A DNA stretch of 64,000 bases from Edaphochlamys debaryana (lineage: Eukaryota; Chlorophyta; Chlorophyceae; Chlamydomonadales), in NCBI GenBank assembly GCA_016858145.1, contig JAEHOE010000010.1, forward strand, positions 620,001 to 684,000, read 5' to 3'. Positions 34,731 through 63,700 of this stretch are shown here, one piece after another. Below the pieces are notes generated by a model. The model saw only the letters and a list, made by a program, of their open reading frames with translations. It made no database searches and was not told where the DNA came from. The position numbers were made by a program, and so were the translations under genes. Position 1 is the stretch's first letter, and each line of letters opens with the position of its first letter.

Positions 34731-35829
34731 GCGATGGATGCGGGTGTGCGGAAAGGTGCGGGAGTGCAGGTGTGCGGGTGCGGAGAAGCGTAGCGCGCGA
34801 GGAAAGTGGGGGAGGGGATAGAGAAGGGGACGAAAGCGTGAGCGCGGCTTTGAATGTGCGGTTGTGTGGGGCGAATGCGGGGTTCTCGGGCAGGTTGGTC
34901 GGGCGTGGGGCGGCAGCGCAGTGCGGTATTGCAGGGGTGAGCGGAGAAGGGAAGTGTGGGGGGGGGGTAAAGAGAACAGGATGGACAGCGCCGATGCGGC
35001 TTCAGTTGTGCGCGCGGTTGTGAGGGTGCAAGGTGGGGGTCTCTGGCAGGTTTGTGGGTGTTGGGCTAGCGGCAGCATGCTGCAGGAATGCAGGGGTGAG
35101 CGGAGAAGGTGCAGTGTGCTGAGGAAGGAAGTGGGAGGACGGTGGATCGCACGAGGCCACGAGCGGCTCGGTGGCGAATTACGTGGCGTGTGGCTTGGAC
35201 GGGTACCGGTACGCAGCAAAGGCGATGGTTGGCGGGGAATTACGTTGACACCTGGACGCAGGCTTGTTGAGACCAGTGAGGTTGGATGTGGCTTCTCCCG
35301 AGGACGTGAAACTACGCACGTACGACGATGGTGTGAACTTGGCCCATGGCATGCTCGCAGAGGTGAGCGCGCAAGACAAGTTCGTTCCGTCAAACGAACC
35401 ACTGACTGGGAACACGGCCAGTCGCCAAGGGCCTGTGACTTGAGCTGTGCTCGTGGCGTCGTGGGCAGTCCAACCTAGACCCAGGGACGATACTTGCCTT
35501 GATCCTGCTTGGTCCGCAAGGTGTGCTAGTCATCTGATTCACAGCCGATCGCACACTGGCTCGGGGCTCCTACGTCGTAAGCTCTCTTACATCCTGCGAG
35601 GCCGGAGTGGCTTAGCAGTTAGCACTGCCTGGCCTTGCTGCCATCCGTTGCCGCGGTGTCCCCAAACCTGTACGCTGACCCTAGCCCTGTCGCCCTCCAA
35701 CCAGGAGTTATAAACGAGCAGGAACCGCGCCCCTCCGCCCCTCGTCCGGGCTTGTGTGCTATTCCCTAACCGCCCCAACCGTGTATAACCACCCCTACCC
35801 AACCGAACTGACCTGCCTGGGAAGAGTGC
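34731..35829. other. Intergenic, low-complexity GT/GC-rich 3' region
   Basis: The region holds the 3'UTR of the Munc13-like gene and the outer flank of the palindrome. The first 400 bases are rich in GTGCGGG and GGTGAGCGG-like strings and contain a degenerate direct repeat, listed separately. I found no TGTAA signal on the plus strand and no exon. Confidence 0.45.
34833..35125 (+). repeat. Degenerate ~150-bp direct repeat
   Basis: Two neighbouring stretches (about 34,838-34,965 and 34,995-35,122) share the same order of blocks: a GCGGTTGTG block, then GGCAGGTT, then CAGGGGTGAGCGGAGAAGG, followed by a GTG-rich end. The last block is the best preserved (near 34,932 and 35,091). It is probably an old tandem duplication in the 3' flank. 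No function is apparent. Confidence 0.45.
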
Positions 35830-36103
35830 ACTGCCCAAGTCGACCTGGCCCACTACTGCGGCATAGCTACCTGTCGATCCCCTCCAAAGTATAAATGCTA
35901 TATCTCTTGTCGGGAAGCTGGCCTGGCTTCGCGCCATCAAACGGATCATCACATGTCCGTTGTACGCACACTGCAAAACGCATCTAGGGCCGCGGGAGGG
36001 GTGACCCTTCCGCCTCCGCACCGCCCCCGCCCGCCCTCGCCCTGCCAGGGCCCAAGTGGGGCCAGCCCCTCTCTGTCTATCTCGCCAGCCGCACACACGG
36101 CGC

Positions 36104-38301
36104 TCAGCATACGATGTTGGCGGGCCAGTTGCACACGGTGCCTCCACGCGAGTCCATGGCCGTGCCCACGCCGCACTGCTGGTAAACCGCGCCGCCGTTC
36201 CAGCACTGCATGCGGGGCGGGGAGGGAGACGTGGACAGAGCACGAGAGTTAGAGAGGTCCACGGACTTGGGGGGTGCGTGCAGGCAAGCAAGGGGAGTCC
36301 GGCGTGCTACGCTAAGCACAGCGATAGGACGGCTCCATCCCGTGCACCACACCCGGCGTGCCGGGGCTCGTCTCACGTTGTAGAACGAGTTGCAGGCCTT
36401 GCACTTGTCGCCGTACAGGCCGGGCGCTTTGCCCGCGCAGAAGGTGGAGGCCGGGGGCGAGGTGCACGGGCCGGGGGCGGTGACGGGGCTGGGGGTGGCG
36501 GTGACGGGGCTGGGGGTGACGGTGACGGGGCTGGGCTTGACGGTGACGGGGCTGGGGGTGGGGCCGGAGCCGCCGCCGCCGGTGATGAAGATGTCACTGA
36601 GCGCGCGGAGGGGCAGGAACAGGCAAAGCGCGGGGGACGTAAGGCACAGGGGGGGGCTGAGGAATGTCATACGGCAATCCCAATCATGCTGCTGACACGT
36701 AAGCCTTTATCATCGCCGGCGAAGGCGTACGGTGCCGTACGATGCCGTACGTGCACACGCACCTGCAGTCCTTGAAGATCTCCGTCCGGGGAGCTGCCCC
36801 GTTGGTGCCGCACACGGGCAGAGGCCCCAGGCCAATGACGCGGCTGTACTGGGCGGCGTAGCCATCGCCGCACTCGGCGGCGGAGCACTGGTCGACGCAC
36901 GAGTTGGCGGTGCGGTAGGTGCTGCGCGGGATGGGGCCAGGTGGCGGGCAAGGTCCTCAGGTGCACTGACAACGCAGGGGCTCCGGTGCGGACGGATCAA
37001 TGCAGCCTCGAACACGGGTCCCCTCGCTGTCCCCGACACAGCCCCCGTCCCCTTGCCATCCCCTGCACATCCTCCCGCTTCAGTCCCAGCGGCCCGTGTC
37101 CCTGCAGTCATGCGGCGGCGGGTGGCCCCCGGCCCCCGCACTCACAGCTGCATCACGTAGCGCCTGCCGCTGCTGCCCGATGCCTCGACGTTGGGCAGGC
37201 GCCAGCGGATAGTGTAGGTGTACTGGCTGGACTGGATCCACCAGCGGGTGTACGACGTGCCGGACACGGTCGCAGGGAAGCTGTCGAAGCAGGACTGCGG
37301 AAACAAGGTGGGGATGGGACGAGAGAGGGTTAAGGGGTGTCACGAGCGCTCTCGGGGCGGGTAGGTTGGGGTAGAGGGCTTCGAGGTGGGTTACACAACG
37401 CTTCATTCCTTCACGGCGGTCCGACTGCTCTGGCCCCAAAGCATGCCGCGTGCCACAGCCGCCCCTGTACCCTCCGCTTGCCTGTGTGGGGTTGACCGTG
37501 GTGGGGCAGACCTTGAGCATGAAGTAGCCGCCGTGCTGCGCGCGCACAGTGATGGTGATGGAGATCTCGCTGCCGGAAGCGTAGGTGGCTGCAAGCATGA
37601 AGCAGCAGGGACAGATGTGAGCGGCGGATTCCACAAGGCGTGTGCAGTGAGCAGGCGGGCGGGGCCGGGTGTGCACAAAGGCGGGGCCCCATGACACGCC
37701 ATGCAGCGCAATTCTGCAATGCACGCACCCTGGACGGGCGTCTCGATGGACTTGATGAAGAAGCTGCTGCTGTCCTGCACACGCATGGTGCGTGGGTGGG
37801 CACAAGGTCAGGCATGGAGAAAGAGCAGGACGAGGGGACGCCGGCTCCGTCAGTCGATCCCACGCCCCTTAACCCCGATCCCCATGCCAGCCGGGATGCC
37901 CCTCACCTGGTGGGGGTCACCGCACTCATCCGGCTTGTCGCTCACAAACGTGCCATCAGGGTACAAGGGAAAGGGCCTTGGACCCAGGCCGTTGCCTGCG
38001 GGTTGGCGAGCAAGGCGGGCAACATGATGCGGGGCCCACGCGCCGAAACCTGCTGCTGCTAGCCGCTCAACGAGTGCCGGGGTGCCACAACAGTTGGCCG
38101 ACACGATGCGCTCAGCCGCCTCGCTCAGCAGACCATGTGGAGGCGTTGCACTCGACCCTCACCTGCACTGGCATCGTACTCGCCCCAGCCCCTGCCCGCC
38201 GCCAGCACGCGCGAACGCGGGGAGGACAGGAAGGCGTGTGCGTCGGTGCCCCGCGCCAGGAGTACAGCGGCCGCCGCGACCAAGGCCAGCAGAAGGGGCA
38301 T
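36104..38301 (-). CDS. Secreted AA15-like lytic polysaccharide monooxygenase with CBM14 module (left copy)
   Basis: This is the mirror copy of the gene at 41238-43432. ATG 38301 begins a signal peptide (MPLLLALVAAAAVLLARG) cut before HAFLSSPRSR. That puts a histidine at the mature N-terminus, as LPMOs need for the copper brace. The second copper histidine is in VRAQHGGYFMLKVCP. Further AA15-type marks are NPTQSCFDSFP, YTYTIRWRLPNV, RRYVMQLTYRTANSC and FKDCRDIFI. A Pro/Thr/Val linker (TPSPVTV repeats) leads to a CBM14-like Cys-rich domain (FCAGKAPGLYG to NWPANIVC), stop at 36106-36104. Exon 1 ends at 38163 and the phase to the next coding stretch is off, as in the other copy. An intron with a GC donor follows NPTQ. 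I see two residue differences from the right copy: Met for Arg after GGYF, and Lys for Thr in the linker. Expected role is oxidative cleavage of chitin or a similar glycan outside the cell. Confidence 0.8.
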
Positions 38302-38377
38302 CGACCTGCGCGAGTACCAGCATGCGTGGGTGATCATCACGTCGAGGTATGTTGACCCAGGGCTGGTGGTGGTGCGA

Positions 38378-38395
38378 TTTCGCGCCATTTCGCGC
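38378..38395 (-). promoter_or_regulatory. Two E2F-like TTTCGCGC motifs upstream of the left LPMO
   Basis: TTTCGCGC occurs at 38378-38385 and 38388-38395, ten bases apart and about 80-95 bases upstream of the LPMO start codon. TTTSSCGC is the E2F/DP binding consensus conserved in plants and algae. The right copy has three such motifs in the same place. Binding is inferred. Confidence 0.4.
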
Positions 38396-41134
38396 AACGG
38401 GAGTGCACATGACAACGATCTCGACTCGCTCGCGATCTACAAGCTAATGTATACCGCTGGACCATGGTGTATCTATGCAGTCACACGGTGTTGCAGGGAG
38501 CGACCGCAGCGTCAATGCTTCGTCCCAACGGTCCCACCGGGCCCACACCCGCGACACGCAGGGCCCGGCCCAGGCCCACGGGACGCTCACCTCCCGATCA
38601 TCATGGTTTTTTTGCTGTGATGGTTGTCTGGTGTTGATGGGGAAGTCTGCGAAACACAGGGAAGCGGGATGTCACGTTCCCGCCATCCATCGATACCGAT
38701 GGACAGCCGCACACGATTAGCGGGCGCCGTGCCGAGCCCTACTCGAGCAATGTCCCGATGTCCTAGTGCACGGCCCGGTGTATGGTTGCAGCTTGCTCTG
38801 GAGATGCCGAGCGGGGGCAAGGGCTGTGGCTGGGGTAGGGGGCGCCGGCGGCGTCGGCGGTACTTGCCTGCAAGCGTGCGTGTCACGGCGCGGGCTCTCT
38901 CCACCGGGAAGCCAAGGAGGTCTGGGGTGGCGCTGATTGCAAAGCGTGTGATAAGGAAGACAGCCGATCCACAGTGGTTTAAGTAGGCCTGGGTGGGAAA
39001 GCCCACCATGCGTGCATTGTCGTGGGGCCCCGCCCGTGAGGGGGCCTGACTCGGGCCCAGGCCCTAGAGAGGCCTACTTGATTGTCTACCGCTGAACAGG
39101 CCTGGGCCTGGGCCTGGGCTGGGATATTCTGCACATTCACAAAGTCTGTGCATACAAGCAAGCGGGGCAAGCAAGGTTGGCGGTGATGATGCAAGGAGCC
39201 GCTCGCTGCAGGGGGGCGCCTATGTAGCCATGGCTGTGTGTGGCATCCCCGGGGGTGCGGTGCGTGGCGTGGGAGGGTTGCCCGGCCTGCCCCCGCCCAG
39301 GCCTAGCCCAGGCCTGGACTGCGGCTCTCCACCCCTGCAGCCCGTTTTACTCGGCCTTTCTGGCACTGAGGTAAAAAGCGTTATTGCCATGACATGCGGG
39401 CTTGCTACCTTCGTGGCATGGCACCGGCTTGGTGCGGGGGGATGCCTGTAGGACGACAATTGGCTGACCACTGAAACGCCGCGTGAGGCAGGTTTCATGT
39501 CCAATGGCGCACCATGTACAGGCCGGAACCGATGCAGGCTCATACGCTGCTCGCTTGGGACCTCAGAATGAGGTTCAGGCAGCTGCGGGGAGGCAACTTG
39601 CCTTTGAAAGGCCTTGGAGCCGCACCCCATACGGCGGTGATTGCGCTTCGGAGCTGTCGCACATGTGGAAGATAGCGCCTGGGCGAATCACTGGCTATGT
39701 CGGTGCGCGTACGAGCGAGGCCCCGCGAGAGTATCAGGCCCGCCCTTGCTGGCTCGCTTGCCAGGGTGCATGATTGCCCTGGGGTCATTGGGAGATCTAC
39801 CGCGTGCGGGACATATCAGGTTTGTGAATGGCTTCATCTGACAAGCGCATGAGCTCTTGGAGCAATGGCGTGTGGGGTGCTGCTTCAAGGCCCACGCCTG
39901 CCCCCAGGTTGCCTGGACCTCATTCTGGGTCTCCTTGCGAGGGACAGGTCCGCCTTCATGCCGGCTGGCGGAGCCTCAGGCTCGGTCCTGTCCATCGTAC
40001 GCCTTCAGACATGAGGCATGCCTGATGCAGTGTTTCCGGTGATCAGAATACCCCTGCAGCCATGCCTTCCCCGCCGCACCACGGCAAGCCGATCCCATGT
40101 CACCCAGCAAGCAAGCAAGTGAAATCTAGCCAGCATGTCATGGCGGTTATGCTCTTTACATCAGCCCGAGTTGTAGGGGTGGATGGAGAGCCGCAGTCCA
40201 GGCATGGGCTAGGCCTGGGCGGCGGGGGCAGCCCTCCTACGGCACCCCACGCACCGCACCGGGGATGGATGCCACGCGCACCATGTACACCATGGCTACC
40301 CCGCTGTCCGCTGCAGCAAGGGGTCTAGTGGGTCTCCGCATCATCCCCTCTGACCTTGCTTGCACCGCTTGCTTGCATGCACAGGCTCTAGCTATGTGCA
40401 GGATATCCCAGCCCAAGCCCAGGCCCAGGCCTGTTCAGCGGTAGACAATCAAGTAGGCCTCTCTAGGGCCTGGGCCCGAGTCAGGCCCCCTCACGGGCGG
40501 GGCCCCACGACAATGCACGCATGGTGGGCTTTCCCACCCAGGCCTACTTAAACCACTGTGGATCGGCTGTCTTCCTTATCACACGCTTTGCAATCAGCGC
40601 CACCCCAGACCTCCTTGGCTTCCCGGTGGAGAGAGCCCGCGCCGTGACACGCACGCTTGCAGGCAAGTACCGCCGACGCCGCCGGCGCCCCCTACCCCAG
40701 CCACAGCCCTTGCCCCCGCTCGGCATCTCCAGAGCAAGCTGCAATCATACACCGGGCCGTGCACTAGGACATCGGGACATTGCTCGAGTAGGGCTCGGCA
40801 CGGCGCCCGCTAATCGTGTGCGGCTGTCCATCCGTATCGATGGATGGCGGGAACGTGACATCCCGCTTCCCTGTGTTTCGCAGACTCCCCCATCAACACC
40901 AGACAACCATCACAGCAAAAAAACCATGATGACCAGGAGGTGAGCGTCCCGTGGGCCTGGGCCGGGCCCTGCGTGTCGCGGGTGTGGGCCCGGTGGGACC
41001 GTTGGGACGAGGCGTTGACGCTGCGGTCGCTCCCTGCAACACCGTGTGACTGCATAGATACACCATGTTCCAGCGGTATACATTAGCTTGTTGATCACGA
41101 GCGAGTCGAGATCGTTGTCATGTGCACTCCAGTC

Positions 41135-41162
41135 GCGCGAAATGGCGCGAAAGGGCGCGAAA
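41135..41162 (+). promoter_or_regulatory. Three E2F-like GCGCGAAA motifs upstream of the right LPMO
   Basis: GCGCGAAA (reverse of TTTCGCGC) stands at 41135-41142, 41145-41152 and 41155-41162, in perfect ten-base steps, 76-103 bases upstream of ATG 41238. One helical turn between sites would place them on the same DNA face. The left copy has two. Function is inferred from the E2F consensus. Confidence 0.45.
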
Positions 41163-41237
41163 TCGCACCACCACCAGCCATGGGTGACATACCTCGACGT
41201 GATGATCACCCACGCATGCTGGTACTCGCGCAGGTCG

Positions 41238-43432
41238 ATGCCCCTTCTGCTGGCCTTGGTCGCGGCGGCCGCCGTACTCCTGGCGCGGGGCACCGACGCA
41301 CACGCCTTCCTGTCCTCCCCGCGTTCGCGCGTGCTGGCGGCGGGCAGGGGCTGGGGCGAGTACGATGCCAGTGCAGGTGAGGGTCGAGTGCAACGCCTCC
41401 ACACGGTCTGCTGAGCGAGGCGGCTGAGCGCATCGTGTCGGCCAACTGTTGTGGCACCCCGGCACTCGTTGAGCGGCTAGCAGCAGCAGGTTTCGGCGCG
41501 TGGGCCCCGCATCATGTTGCCCGCCTTGCTCGCCAACCCGCAGGCAACGGCCTGGGTCCAAGGCCCTTTCCCTTGTACCCTGATGGCACGTTTGTGAGCG
41601 ACAAGCCGGATGAGTGCGGTGACCCCCACCAGGTGAGGGGCATCCCGGCTGGCATGGGGAGCAAGTAAGGGGCGTGGGATCGACTGACGGAGCCGGCGTC
41701 CCCTCGTCCTGCTCTTTCTCCATGCCTGACCTCGTGCCCACCCACGCACCATGCGTGTGCAGGACAGCAGCAGCTTCTTCATCAAGTCCATCGAGACGCC
41801 CGTCCAGGGTGCGTGCATGCAGAATTGCGCTGCATGGCGTGTCATGGGGCCACGCCCATGTGCACACCCGGCCCCGCCCGCCTGCTCACTGCACACGCCT
41901 TCCGGACTCCGCCGCTCACATCTGTCCCTGCTGCTTCATGCTTGCAGCCACCTACGCTTCCGGCAGCGAGATCTCCATCACCATCACTGTGCGCGCGCAG
42001 CACGGCGGCTACTTCAGGCTCAAGGTCTGCCCCACCACGGTCAACCCCACACAGGCAAGCGGAGGGTACAGGGGCGGCTGTGGCACGCGGCATGCTTTGG
42101 GGCCAGAGCAGTCGGACCGCCGTGAAGGAATGAAGCGTTGTGTAACCCACCTCGAAGCCCTCTACCCCAACCTACCCGCCCCGAGAGCGCTCATGACACC
42201 CCTTCACCCTCCCTCGTCCCAACACCACCTTGTTCCCGCAGTCCTGCTTCGACAGCTTCCCTGCGACCGTGTCCGGCACGTCGTACACCCGCTGGTGGAT
42301 CCAGTCCAGCCAGTACACCTACACCATCCGCTGGCGCCTGCCCAACGTCGAGGCATCGGGCAGCAGCGGCAGGCGCTACGTGATGCAGCTGTGAGTGCGG
42401 GGGCCGGGGGCCACCCGCCGCCGCATGACTGCAGGGACACGGGCCGCTGGGACTGAAGCGGGAGGATGTGCAGGGGATGGCAAGGGGACGACGGGGGCTG
42501 TGTCGGGGATAGCGAGGAGACTGGTGTTCGAGGCTGCATTGATCCGTCCGCACCGGAGCCCCTGCGTCGTCAGTGCACCTGAGGACCTTGCCCGCCACCT
42601 GGCCCCATCCCGCGCAGCACCTACCGCACCGCCAACTCGTGCGTCGACCAGTGCTCCCCCGCCGAGTGCGGCGATGGCTACGCCGCCCAGTACAGCCGCG
42701 TCATCGGCCTGGGGCCTCTGCCCGTGTGCGGCACCAACGGGGCAGCTCCCCGGACGGAGATCTTCAAGGACTGCAGGTGCGTGTGCACGTACGGCATCGT
42801 ACGGCACCGCACGCCTTCGCCGGCGATGATAAAGGCTTACGTGTCAGCAGCATGATTGGGATTGCCGTATGCCATTCCTCAGCCCCCCCCCTGTGCCTTA
42901 CGTCCCCCGCGCTTTGCCTGTTCCTGCCCCTCCGCTCAGTGACATCTTCATCACCGGCGGCGGCGGCTCCGGCCCCACCCCCAGCCCCGTCACGGTCACG
43001 CCCAGCCCCGTCACCGTCACCCCCAGCCCCGTCACCGCCACCCCCAGCCCCGTCACCGCCCCCGGCCCGTGCACCTCGCCCCCGGCCTCCACCTTCTGCG
43101 CGGGCAAAGCGCCCGGCCTGTACGGCGACAAGTGCAAGGCCTGCAACTCGTTCTACAACGTGAGACGAGCCCCGGCACGCCGGGTGTGGTGCACGGGATG
43201 GAGCCGTCCTATCGCTGTGCTTAGCGTAGCACGCCGGACTCCCCTTGCTTGCCTGCACGCACCCCCCAAGTCCGTGGACCTCTCTAACTCTCGTGCTCTG
43301 TCCACGTTTCCGTCCCCGCCCCGCATGCAGTGCTGGAACGGCGGCGCAGTTTACCAGCAGTGCGGCGTGGGCACGGCCATGGACTCGCGTGGAGGCACCG
43401 TGTGCAACTGGCCCGCCAACATTGTATGCTGA
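41238..43432 (+). CDS. Secreted AA15-like lytic polysaccharide monooxygenase with CBM14 module (right copy)
   Basis: ATG 41238 opens a signal peptide (MPLLLALVAAAAVLL), then mature HAFLSSPRSR with the N-terminal copper histidine; a Met twelve codons upstream is less likely. Later exons: 41763-41808, 41948-42054 (VRAQHGGYFRLKVCP, second copper histidine), 42242-42390, 42618-42776, 42940-43159 (TPSPVTV linker and first half of CBM14) and 43331-43432 (NWPANIVC, TGA). These join in phase. The intron after 42054 begins GCAAGC, a GC-AG intron. Exon 1 has a good GTGAG donor at 41377. The following coding stretch (TPPHGLLSEAAERIV to CGDPHQ, ending 41631) is out of phase by the five bases GTGAG with no room for a normal intron. 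The AA15-type landmarks (CGDP, HxGYF, C-F, LP, FxxC-DI) and the chitin-binding C-terminal module point to a chitin-type substrate; the real substrate is unknown. Confidence 0.82.
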
Positions 43433-44703
43433 GCGCCGTGTGTGCGGCTGGCGAGATAGACAGAGAGGGGCTGGCCCCACTTGGGCCCTGGCAGGGCGAG
43501 GGCGGGCGGGGGCGGTGCGGAGGCGGAAGGGTCACCCCTCCCGCGGCCCTAGATGCGTTTTGCAGTGTGCGTACAACGGACATGTGATGATCCGTTTGAT
43601 GGCGCGAAGCCAGGCCAGCTTCCTGACAAGAGTTACTCCAGCCTATGGAGGGGATGGATAGGTAGCGGTATATATGGACGTGCGCAGCAGTAGTGGAAGT
43701 TGGACCGAGTTGGACTGTGCACTCGAATGACAAAGAACTGGGCGGCTGAGTCTTGGAGCGCATGCATGCATGCGCACCTTGACGGATGAAATAGTTGTAA
43801 GCGTATGCTTCGCCTTGTAGATTTGGGGGAGGTGCGCGCGTCGGTGGCGTGGGATGTGTCGGATGTGTGGGTGTCAAGCTTCAAGCCACGGGCAGGCGGC
43901 CGCATGCAGCCATGCAGGATGTAAGCAAAACACATCAGTGACAGCCGCTAAGGGGCTTCACCATTGCTCCGGTGAGGGTTGGGTTTGCCACGCCGACTTC
44001 CCATCGATGCCCTCGTGAGATGAGCTGGTGAGTTTTTGTCCAGCCAGGCGCAGCAGGATTGCGGCGACTTGGAGCCAAGCTTTTGCTATGGTGACCTTTG
44101 TGTACCTCGCTTCTTAATTGCTGGGCGTGATGCGTCGCGGTGGGCCCAACCGAGGCCCAGGGTTCCTAACGTGGGTGCCTAACGGGCGCCTCGGGTACGC
44201 ACACGTAGCCCAGCAGGACGTGCCGTCATGATTGCTACAGCCCAGAGGTGCAGGAGTCCTGGTTTTGGGCTTGGTTCAGCTGCGGGCAGCGCCCAGTCGG
44301 GCTGGCCGGCGGGACCCACGCCCGAACCAAAGCGGGGGGAAGAGGGTCGTGGGGCCCTATCACACGCCACACGCCATATCACACGCCTATTATGTACCGA
44401 CATAGCAGCCTGACTCGGCCTCCGCTCGCCCTCCGCGTTAGAAAGGTTGTGTAGTGCACATTTCCAGCAACGACTCCAACCGGACAATAGACAGGATTGA
44501 GCCCGGACATCTGTTCCGTAAGATTAGAATGCAGCTGTTACGGGAACAAGCGTTCCACCGTGGAGCCCAACGTCTGAAATGGACTCGGGGACTCAGGGAC
44601 GTCCCCGGGAGCGGGCTTCCGCAACCAAGCTGCAGCATGTAAGGGCAGCGTTTGGTCGTGCGCGATGCGCGCGGAGGAGCAGCTGTGAATCCTCGCGGGC
44701 GAG
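43433..44703. other. Intergenic: LPMO 3' region and 5' region of the beta-helix membrane protein
   Basis: This holds the end of the palindrome arm (to about 43,725) and then unique DNA. No exon is supported. An in-frame ATG at 44579 could extend the next gene by 42 codons, but the downstream ATG 44704 gives the better signal peptide. Confidence 0.5.
43797..43801 (+). terminator. Candidate TGTAA poly(A) signal of the right LPMO
   Basis: TGTAA lies about 365 bases downstream of the stop at 43432, just outside the palindrome; a second TGTAA is at 43920-43924. If used, the two LPMO copies have different 3'UTR ends. On the left the nearest minus-strand TGTAA is at 35591-35587. Confidence 0.35.
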
Positions 44704-60717: not shown

Positions 60718-60743
60718 ATGTGTTCACTGATTCGAAGCAGTGG
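60339..60743 (+). repeat. Degenerate direct repeat of the LysM-gene 5' end
   Basis: The stretch 60,339-60,447 (TTGAAGGCCCAGAG ... CGCAACCAG ... TTCAGCATG ... GGAGCAGTAGTGG) matches, in order, 60,657-60,743 (TTGAAGGCCTTTGGAG ... CGCAACCAG ... TCCAGCATG ... GAAGCAGTGG). The second copy contains the start codon used for the LysM protein. The first has an equivalent ATG at 60418 (MYLVVRSSSG against MCSLIRSSGK) but loses the signal peptide afterwards. A short TTGAAGGCCCAGAG unit is itself doubled (60,340 and 60,377). Confidence 0.5.
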
Positions 60744-63700
60744 AAAGCGCGAGAAGAGGCTCCAAGTGGCTCCACAGTGGCTCCAAATCTTGGCCCGCCT
60801 CGCGACGCTGGTCCTCCTCTTCCTGTGTGCAACGCGCATCGCTGCACATAGCACTGGTGAGCACGGTCACTCCGCGCAGCAACACGAGAACGATTGCAAC
60901 CATCCGTGCCAAACCCCGCCCAAATCACCGAGCCGGGTCGGCCCCGGCGCTAGCCCCCGGCGGATGTGACGCCCCCCTTCAACCTCGAAGCCCCTTAGTA
61001 TGTTCTAGCGTGAGCTCCACTGCCGTTCACAGGGTGCACATGTGCGCTCCCCCGACAGGCTGCACCGGAAGAAGCGTCACAGTGAAAAAAGACGACACGT
61101 GCTATGAGCTGTGGATGGCGGACGGCCGGGCATGGGATGCGGACGCCCTGACAGCCCTGAACCCGGGGCTCGACTGCGACGCGTTGACTGTCGGGCAGCT
61201 GGTGTGCCTGCCTTCCGCGTCCATGCCCTCTCCTCCGCGAGGGCCCTTGCCGGGTGAGGTGGCGGGTGTTATTTCCAAGCGTGTTGAGGCGGGCGATGCA
61301 AGTGCGGACGCCGCAGCACCCGGCCAGACTGAGTACGGTCTTGCTTGCACTCGACTCGTCCTTCGTGTCATCCACACTTGCTCATCCGCATCGCCCTCTG
61401 TGCCATTGCCTGACCCTTCAGGCTGCACCGGAAGAAGCGTCACAGTGAAAAAAGACGACACATGCTATGAGCTGTGGACGGCGGACGGCCGGGCATGGGA
61501 TGCGGACGCCCTGATAGCCCTGAACCCGGGGCTCGACTGCGACGCGTTGGCTATCGGGCAGCTGGTGTGCCTGCCTTCCGCGTCCATGCCCTCTCCTCCG
61601 CGAGGGCCCTTGCCGGGTGAGGTGGCGGGTGTTATTTCCAAGCGTGTTGAGGCGGGCGATGCAAGTGCGGACGCCGCAGCACCCGGCCAGACTGAGTACG
61701 GTCTTGCTTGCACTCGACTCGTCCTTCGTGTCATCCACACTTGCTCATCCGCATCGCCCTCTGTGCCATTGCCTGACCCTTCAGGCTGCACCGGAAGAAG
61801 CGTCACAGTGAAAAAAGACGACACATGCTATGAGCTGTGGACGGCGGACGGCCGGGCATGGGATGCGGACGCCCTGACAGCCCTGAACTACCTGAACCCG
61901 GGGCTCGACTGCGACGCGTTGGCTATCGGGCAGCTGGTGTGCCTGCCTTCCGCGTCCATGCCCTCTCCTCCGCGAGGGCCCTTGCCGGGTGAGGTGGCGG
62001 GTGTTCCTTCCAAGCGTGTTGAGGCGGGCGATGCAAGTGCGGACGCCGCAGCACCCGGCCAGACTGAGTACGGTCTTGCTTGCACTCGACTCGTCCTTCG
62101 TGTCATCCACACTTGCTCATCCGCATCGCCCTCTGTGCCATTGCCTGACCCTTCAGGCTGCACCGGAAGAAGCGTCACAGTGAAAAAAGACGACACATGC
62201 TATGAGCTGTGGACGGCGGACGGCCGGGCATGGGATGCGGACGCCCCGACAGCCCTGAACTACCTGAACCCGGGGCTCGACTGCGACGCGTTGGCTATCG
62301 GGCAGCTGGTGTGCCTGCCTTCCGCGTCCATGCCCTCTCCTCCGCGAGGGCCCTTGCCGGGTGAGGTGGCGGGTGTTATTTCCAAGCGTGTTGAGGCGGG
62401 CGATGCAAGTGCGGACGCCGCAGCACCCGGCCAGACTGAGTACGGTCTTGCTTGCACTCGACTCGTCCTTCGTGTCATCCACACTTGCTCATCCGCATCG
62501 CCCTCTGTGCCATTGCCTGACCCTTCAGGCTGCACCGGAAGAAGCGTCACAGTGAAAAAAGACGACACATGCTATGAGCTGTGGACGGCGGACGGCCGGG
62601 CATGGGATGCGGACGCCCTGACAGCCCTGAACTACCTGAACCCGGGGCTCGACTGCGACGCGTTGGCTATCGGGCAGCTGGTGTGCCTGCCTTCCGCGTC
62701 CATGCCCTCTCCTCCGCGAGGGCCCTTGCCGGGTGAGGTGGCGGGTGTTCCTTCCAAGCGTGTTGAGGCGGGCGATGCAAGTGCGGACGCCGCAGCACCC
62801 GGCCAGACTGAGTACGGTCTTGCTTGCACTCGACTCGTCCTTCGTGTCATCCACACTTGCTCATCCGCATCGCCCTCTGTGCCATTGCCTGACCCTTCAG
62901 GCTGCACCGGAAGAAGCGTCACAGTGAAAAAAGACGACACATGCTATGAGCTGTGGACGGCGGACGGCCGGGCATGGGATGCGGACGCCCTGACAGCCCT
63001 GAACTACCTGAACCCGGGGCTCGACTGCGACGCGTTGGCTGTCGGGCAGCGGGTGTGCCTGTCGGCCGCCTCCCCTGCCGTGCCGCCTTCCGCGCCTCTG
63101 CCCCCTCCCTCACCGCGGCCTCCGCCGCCCGCCAGTAAGGACAGAAGGAAACGGCTCTGCTGCTGGTGTTATGATACCGTTTCTTATGCGAGCTGCAGTC
63201 TTGGCTATAGTCGCTCTACGGGGTCCAGTCCCGTCACCGGCCGTCTTGTGAGCAAGCGTGAACCTGCTCTGCGCTTCCCCCGACCCACGCCCTCCTCCTA
63301 CAGGCTGCAATGGCAGACGCGTCACCGTCAGAAAGGGCGACACGTGCAGAAGCCTTTGGCGGGCTTCCGGCCATGCTTGGAACCAGAAATGGTTTTGCAT
63401 CCTGAACCCGACAATGAACTGCCGTCGTCCGCTGCTGCGAATTGGCCAGCACATGTGCATCCCAGTCAACACAGCGCCTCGCAGCCGCAAGCCGCCGCCC
63501 CGCAAGCCGCCGCCCCGCAAGCCGCCGCCTCGCAAGCAGCAAAGCCTGCAGCAACCCCCTTGGAGCCCGCCGTCACCGCCCTCTGTCAGTGAGTCATTGT
63601 CGCGGGGCAGTGATGACTCGTTGTCCCAGCTTTGCGTGTCTTGCCCTCGTAGCTCTACTCAACCCCTTCCTCCTACAGTGCTGCATGCTGCTGCTGCCAC

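Follow-up and report, generated by a model that had tools for sequence, protein, structure and literature searches.

Two genes lying head to head in inverted arms, almost identical over most of their length, raise the question of when the arms were duplicated and how they have stayed alike. Here, we address this question for an LPMO gene palindrome in a 64,000-nucleotide stretch (the window) of contig C10 of the volvocine green alga Edaphochlamys debaryana. The palindrome had been described as near-perfect, which proves wrong: each arm is made up of three strata, with a core that differs by 2% between ends that differ by ~20%. We consider it very probable that an old inverted duplication had its gene-bearing core overwritten later by arm-to-arm gene conversion.

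Gapped local alignment pairs positions 35824-39666 in inverted orientation with 39841-43724, giving arms of 3.84 and 3.88 kb around an unpaired centre of 174 bp (Table 1). The initial annotation had proposed ~3.8-kb inverted arms at 35830-43725, a spacer of at most ~0.2 kb, and a full head-to-head LPMO gene in each arm, and this layout is borne out by the measured span of 35824-43724 and by two complete gene models with matching splice sites. Self-comparison of the window with blastn returns a single large inverted pair, 35866-39334 with 43666-40181 (95.8% identical, E 0.0), and the gapped alignment carries the homology past this pair, inward to 39666/39841 and outward to 35824/43724. Aligning the inner part gives a score of 341, whereas 300 dinucleotide shuffles peak at 54; with 0/300 shuffles reaching the observed score, chance similarity of the spacer halves is ruled out. 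The outer stratum, extended from the core border, scores 60, a value approached neither by 200 shuffles (at most 16) nor by 200 random window pairs (at most 21), and beyond the outer tips no significant homology was seen in the inverted alignment.

Table 1. Coordinates of the palindrome and its genes within the window
Feature	Position	Strand	Basis or remark
Outer stratum, left arm	35824-35912	+	pairs with 43624-43724; ~19% diverged
Homogenised core, left arm	35913-39127	+	two-change-point maximum likelihood; 1.9% non-coding divergence
Inner stratum, left arm	39128-39666	+	pairs with 39841-40402; ~20% diverged
Unpaired centre, 174 bp	39667-39840	.	outside best inverted alignment
Inner stratum, right arm	39841-40402	-	alignment and change-point fit
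Homogenised core, right arm	40403-43623	-	change-point fit
Outer stratum, right arm	43624-43724	-	alignment and change-point fit
Left LPMO gene, 8 exons	36104-38337	-	38337-38163, 37995-37907, 37774-37729, 37588-37482, 37294-37146, 36921-36763, 36596-36377, 36205-36104
Right LPMO gene, 8 exons	41202-43432	+	41202-41376, 41544-41632, 41763-41808, 41948-42054, 42242-42390, 42618-42776, 42940-43159, 43331-43432
21-bp repeats encoding TPSPVT-type linker, catalytic domain to CBM14	42976-43058	+	left-arm counterpart 36476-36561

Divergence between the arms changes abruptly along their length. The core is mismatched at 50 of 3207 aligned columns (1.56%) and at 41 of 2160 non-coding columns (1.9%), and its 50 substitutions are accompanied by 7 gap runs, including two in which a single-base run has changed length. 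The inner stratum, ~0.54 kb per arm, is mismatched at 99 of 491 columns with 30 gap runs, a gappiness that makes its 20% divergence dependent on the alignment; the outer stratum, ~90 bp per arm and thus short, is mismatched at 16 of 83 aligned columns with 5 gap runs. Fitting two breaks to 2734 non-coding columns (156 mismatches) locates them at 35913 and 39128 and gives rates of 19.3%, 1.9% and 20.2%, raising the log-likelihood from -598.2 under one rate to -490.6 under three, a gain of 107.6. Applied to all 3781 columns, the fit gains 132.7; a coarser grid yields 130.0, where 100 permutations reach no more than 12.3. JC distances are 0.23 for the inner stratum (39141-39666, 94 of 478 mismatched) and 0.21 for the outer one (35824-35911, 15 of 82). 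The alignment continues colinear through both core borders, which are sharp. The earlier statement that the arms are almost identical over genes, introns and flanks therefore holds for the two cores and fails for the inner and outer parts.

That both ends are equally old, while the core between them is ten-fold younger, points to conversion of an old inverted duplication. This reading is supported by the agreement in age of the two unconverted strata, which lie 3.2 kb apart, and by the homogenisation of introns and 5' flank rather than exons alone. We propose that an old inverted duplication of ~3.8 kb set two AA15-CBM14 LPMO gene copies head to head, and that the arms went on to accumulate ~20% divergence where sites were free to evolve. 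Intrachromosomal gene conversion would later have copied ~3.2 kb from one arm onto the other, in a tract comprising the whole gene with ~0.8 kb upstream and ~0.2 kb downstream, while the innermost ~0.54 kb and outermost ~0.09 kb would have escaped and retained their original age. Drift since conversion would account for the ~2% that now separates the cores at non-coding sites and for coding changes that are mostly synonymous. That the copying was gene conversion, and not a process such as break-induced replication through the arm, is our inference, as is the number of events. In C. incerta, the mutation rate is reported with a mean of 11.6e-10 and a median of 7.6e-10 per site per generation (PMC8383909); a rate of ~1e-9, borrowed in this way from another genus, would date the last homogenisation to the order of 1e7 generations ago and the duplication to that of 1e8.

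The core could in principle have been kept alike by purifying selection on the gene within a uniformly old duplication, and coding sequence is indeed the more conserved (9 of 1047 columns, 0.86%) compared with introns (26 of 1180, 2.2%). Six of the nine coding differences are synonymous (binomial P 0.0095), a leaning consistent with both LPMO copies probably being constrained. Yet Ks is just 0.024 (Ka 0.004), and the introns, together with a 5' flank mismatched at 15 of 789 columns (1.9%), lie ten times below the adjoining strata. Introns and synonymous sites cannot be kept alike by selection acting on the protein, which contradicts this account and makes it the least probable of those we considered. 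The three replacements, right versus left, are R127M, P203A and T262K, one more than the two amino-acid differences previously counted.

The E. debaryana assembly (141.9 Mb in 502 contigs) is reported to derive from PacBio reads, taken from a library size-selected at 15-50 kb and corrected with Illumina data (PMC8226300). That combination of long reads and correction argues against an artefact, in which a fold-back read or two haplotypes joined in inverted orientation would have produced the palindrome. A fold-back would moreover give one uniform divergence, not 19%, 2% and 20% in succession; an inverted haplotype join, too, should not leave both ends of a 2% core ~20% diverged. Neither the lack of significant homology past the outer tips nor the unpaired central 174 bp fits such an origin, which we judge extremely improbable.

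Genome searches point to the other arm as the source of the converted sequence. The inner piece 39141-39760 matches only itself and the other arm, and matches to the upstream piece and to two outer non-coding pieces are likewise confined to the two arms. A transposon or repeat as the source of the inner or outer similarity is rejected because three pieces each match both arms only, in a type of search that can miss repeats. Outside the arms, 36500-38500 matches only paralogous exon pieces of 76-88%, none near-identical, and 38340-39140 has no near-identical counterpart. A third donor copy of the core is thus rejected over these two searched pieces, and with no near-identical sequence beyond the two arms, the likely donor is the other arm. 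A search for RNA families gave no match at gathering score.

The distribution of differences within the core bears on whether conversion happened once or repeatedly. The 41 non-coding differences fall in clusters (P 0.006 for gap variance, P 0.046 for the longest clean run), and the 3' flank of the core is free of mismatches (0 of 191 columns) next to the values given above for the 5' flank and introns, as expected if arm-to-arm conversion recurred and is perhaps still ongoing. The differences are few, and their clustering could also reflect local constraint or heterogeneous mutation. We regard repeated conversion, as opposed to one past event, as quite possible while leaning slightly against it; it would refine our explanation and does not compete with it. 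The palindrome had been presented as either very recent or actively homogenised. Very recent it is not, since core ends ten times more diverged than the core show the duplication to be old; later homogenisation is upheld, and the clustering weakly favors more than one event. A signature of GC-biased conversion is absent from the comparison of core 5' flank and inner stratum (GC 0.627 vs 0.623).

A second palindrome in the same genome, from the same gene family, serves as an unconverted comparison. On contig C197, 57647-61925 and 62835-67080 likewise place two AA15-CBM14 genes head to head, in arms of ~4.3 kb around a 909-bp spacer that differ by 3-4% (129 of 4155 columns in one alignment, 158 of 4162 with MAFFT). 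In contrast to the C10 palindrome, its arms lack diverged end zones, and no homology is detected inside or outside them (scores 33 and 40 vs shuffle maxima of 40 and 58). Without homology beyond its arm ends, C197 looks like a plain duplication. The comparison comes from one locus that is not perfectly homogeneous: a two-break fit gains 16.5 log units against a permutation maximum of 9.8 (15 permutations), owing to a 22-bp patch at 61396-61418 in which the arms differ by 42%, flanked by stretches at 3.1% and 2.0%. Exon 1 of the two C197 genes differs by a 5-bp insertion, present in the right copy; a Ks of 0.122 between copies a and b was set aside as inflated by a misread exon 1 of copy b.

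C197 also bears on the idea that the C10 palindrome arose by a single recent inverted duplication whose centre then diverged rapidly through hairpin-linked mutation or deletion. Closely spaced inverted repeats are described as fragile to a degree that depends on spacer and identity (PMC10164571), which lends this idea some plausibility. The C197 palindrome, however, whose arms differ by 3-4%, has no diverged inner zone, the stratum borders at C10 are sharp, and the outer C10 tips, ~3.8 kb from the centre, have diverged as much as the inner part (19.3% vs 20.2%). We therefore view rapid divergence of the centre as very unlikely and retain conversion of an old duplication as our explanation.

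The same literature tempers the argument, made in the initial annotation, that such a palindrome is unstable unless actively maintained. In wild-type yeast, recombination induced by inverted repeats is reported to fall 300-fold when a 12-bp spacer is lengthened to 100 bp, and the repeats to lose their instability once identity is down to 75%, although such repeats regain it in long single-stranded DNA (PMC10164571). The near-identical cores at C10 are 1,273 bp apart, and the intervening stretch is ~80% identical and gapped. Given this separation and imperfect pairing, there is no need to suppose that the palindrome is particularly unstable under ordinary conditions, and the argument is weaker than stated.

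Both genes appear intact, are oriented for transcription outward from the palindrome centre, and are predicted to be expressed and active. Alternative starts lie at 38301 in the left gene and 41238 in the right, and intron 4 is of the GC-AG type. Homologue sequences run on across the exon joints, supporting the 8-exon model; spliced alignment of the derived protein also returns the right-gene exons, less the terminal stop codon, as a consistency check rather than independent evidence. The 348-aa product consists of a hydrophobic N-terminus, an AA15-type catalytic domain, a TPSPVT-type linker and a CBM14. By phmmer, residues 92-209 match 5msz (Thermobia AA15; E 2.7e-7), the nearest solved structure, and residues 295-348 match Pfam CBM_14 with 26.6 bits (cut-off 22.1). 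The full protein has no match to Pfam LPMO_10 (PF03067) at E <= 1, and one open frame scores 17.2 bits, below the cut-off of 23; the homologues P0003, P0004 and P0006 carry this domain.

Two histidines are candidate copper ligands. H34 follows the hydrophobic N-terminal stretch, aligns with a histidine in homologues that have this region, and likely stands at the start of the mature chain. H122, in RAQHGGYF, is the candidate second copper histidine: it is invariant among 10 aligned sequences, the window locus included, and aligns with the histidine of QAPHIGFFEF in 5msz. The replacement R127M falls five residues beyond it. For the Volvox homologue P0003, 50% identical to the window protein, the predicted structure is weak (pLDDT 52, TMt 0.52), and 5msz is its sole PDB match at E <= 0.001 (8.4e-10). 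The window genes probably encode AA15-type LPMOs, which we predict to cleave chitin.

A first protein search returned this locus only (7992 best-sharing candidates scored), and a search restricted to residues 34-250 retrieved 11 proteins, the first being this locus (P0001). The named ones among the other matches to the catalytic region are 44-50% identical and belong to Volvox africanus, Gonium pectorale and Tetrabaena socialis. At this locus, the public 222-aa model HYH03_003634 (P0001) covers part of the left gene, to which its variable residues assign it, and is without the signal-peptide exon and the CBM14 exons. AA15 LPMOs, some of them fused to CBM14, have been described with Chlorophyta already among the holders of the family (PMC5823890); the C10 copies resemble them in both candidate copper histidines and the C-terminal CBM14. 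Unlike relatives with CxxGCVLQ, the C10 copies and those on contig C14 lack the cysteine pair of this motif, which is kept in C197, C183, P0002-P0006 and P0008, and a disulfide may possibly have been lost in the C10-C14 lineage.

These probable chitin-active LPMOs have been amplified in this green alga. The LPMO protein gives 78 exon-level matches (E <= 0.01) on C10, C14, C197, C178, C123, C183 and C63. The genome contains no fewer than 14 AA15-like loci, and many of them form arrays, direct or inverted. We modelled 12 copies outside the window (8 on C14, 3 on C197, 1 on C183), several of them partial: C14 models 1, 2a, 5 and 7 are partial or odd, C14_6 and C14_8 begin inside exon 1, and the C183 model stops short of the CBM14 end. 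A protein tree built with FastTree joins the C10 pair to the C14 copies with a local support of 0.996 (Ks ~0.67), and the C10 and C197 gene pairs are distant paralogues (Ks ~1.0). In the region C14:184-246 kb, some AA15 copies, of which there are at least 8, lie in direct and others in inverted orientation; those in direct orientation are up to 99.9% alike, and inverted stretches range from ~80% to 99%, the longest being near 94%. C14 copy 2 is split by a ~2.5-kb insertion (190923 to 193415), part of which recurs inverted at 238642-239865. On C178, at least three places join the same CBM14 module to other domains, one of them with GTSMATPHVAG, which we take to be a subtilase-like motif.

A broader reading is that fold-back duplication followed by arm-to-arm conversion recurrently expands and keeps AA15 LPMO genes in E. 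debaryana, separately at C10, at C197 and within the C14 array, with the diverged C10 centre acting as a poorly pairing spacer that stabilises a converting palindrome. We raise this as a speculation and think it rather unlikely.

The kind of system seen at C10 is already known. Palindromes undergoing gene conversion are described on mammalian sex chromosomes, including the human and chimpanzee Y and the primate X (PMC3403216, PMC8981503), and C10 shares with them inverted gene-bearing arms whose identity exceeds what the age of the duplication predicts. It differs in core divergence (~2%, compared with 0.02-0.03% reported for the mammalian palindromes in PMC3403216), in its 3.8-kb arms, in its unicellular algal host, in encoding a predicted secreted carbohydrate-active enzyme, and in showing both unconverted edges. 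Willow sex-chromosome palindromes are likewise discussed with gene conversion and belong to the green lineage, but are sex-linked and from a land plant (PMC7023750). In the open-access literature we searched, conversion-maintained palindromes are mostly sex-chromosomal, and we found no paper on arm-to-arm palindrome conversion in Chlamydomonas, or on inverted duplication with conversion in green algae. The three-stratum record in a single-celled alga is thus a good new example, and because both unconverted edges are kept, this one locus records the ages of both the duplication and the homogenisation.

Elsewhere in the window, a neighbouring chitin gene cluster is rejected: 191 stop-to-stop frames reach 140 aa, 19 pass a GC3 filter, and none of the 10 of these that were searched has a Pfam match at E <= 0.01. 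A 953-aa open frame at 60731-63592 (+), ~17 kb from the palindrome and searched separately, has five LysM matches. Within it, at 61056-63061, a 372-bp unit recurs 5.4 times in copies 98% alike, and the frame could possibly be another chitin- or peptidoglycan-binding gene.
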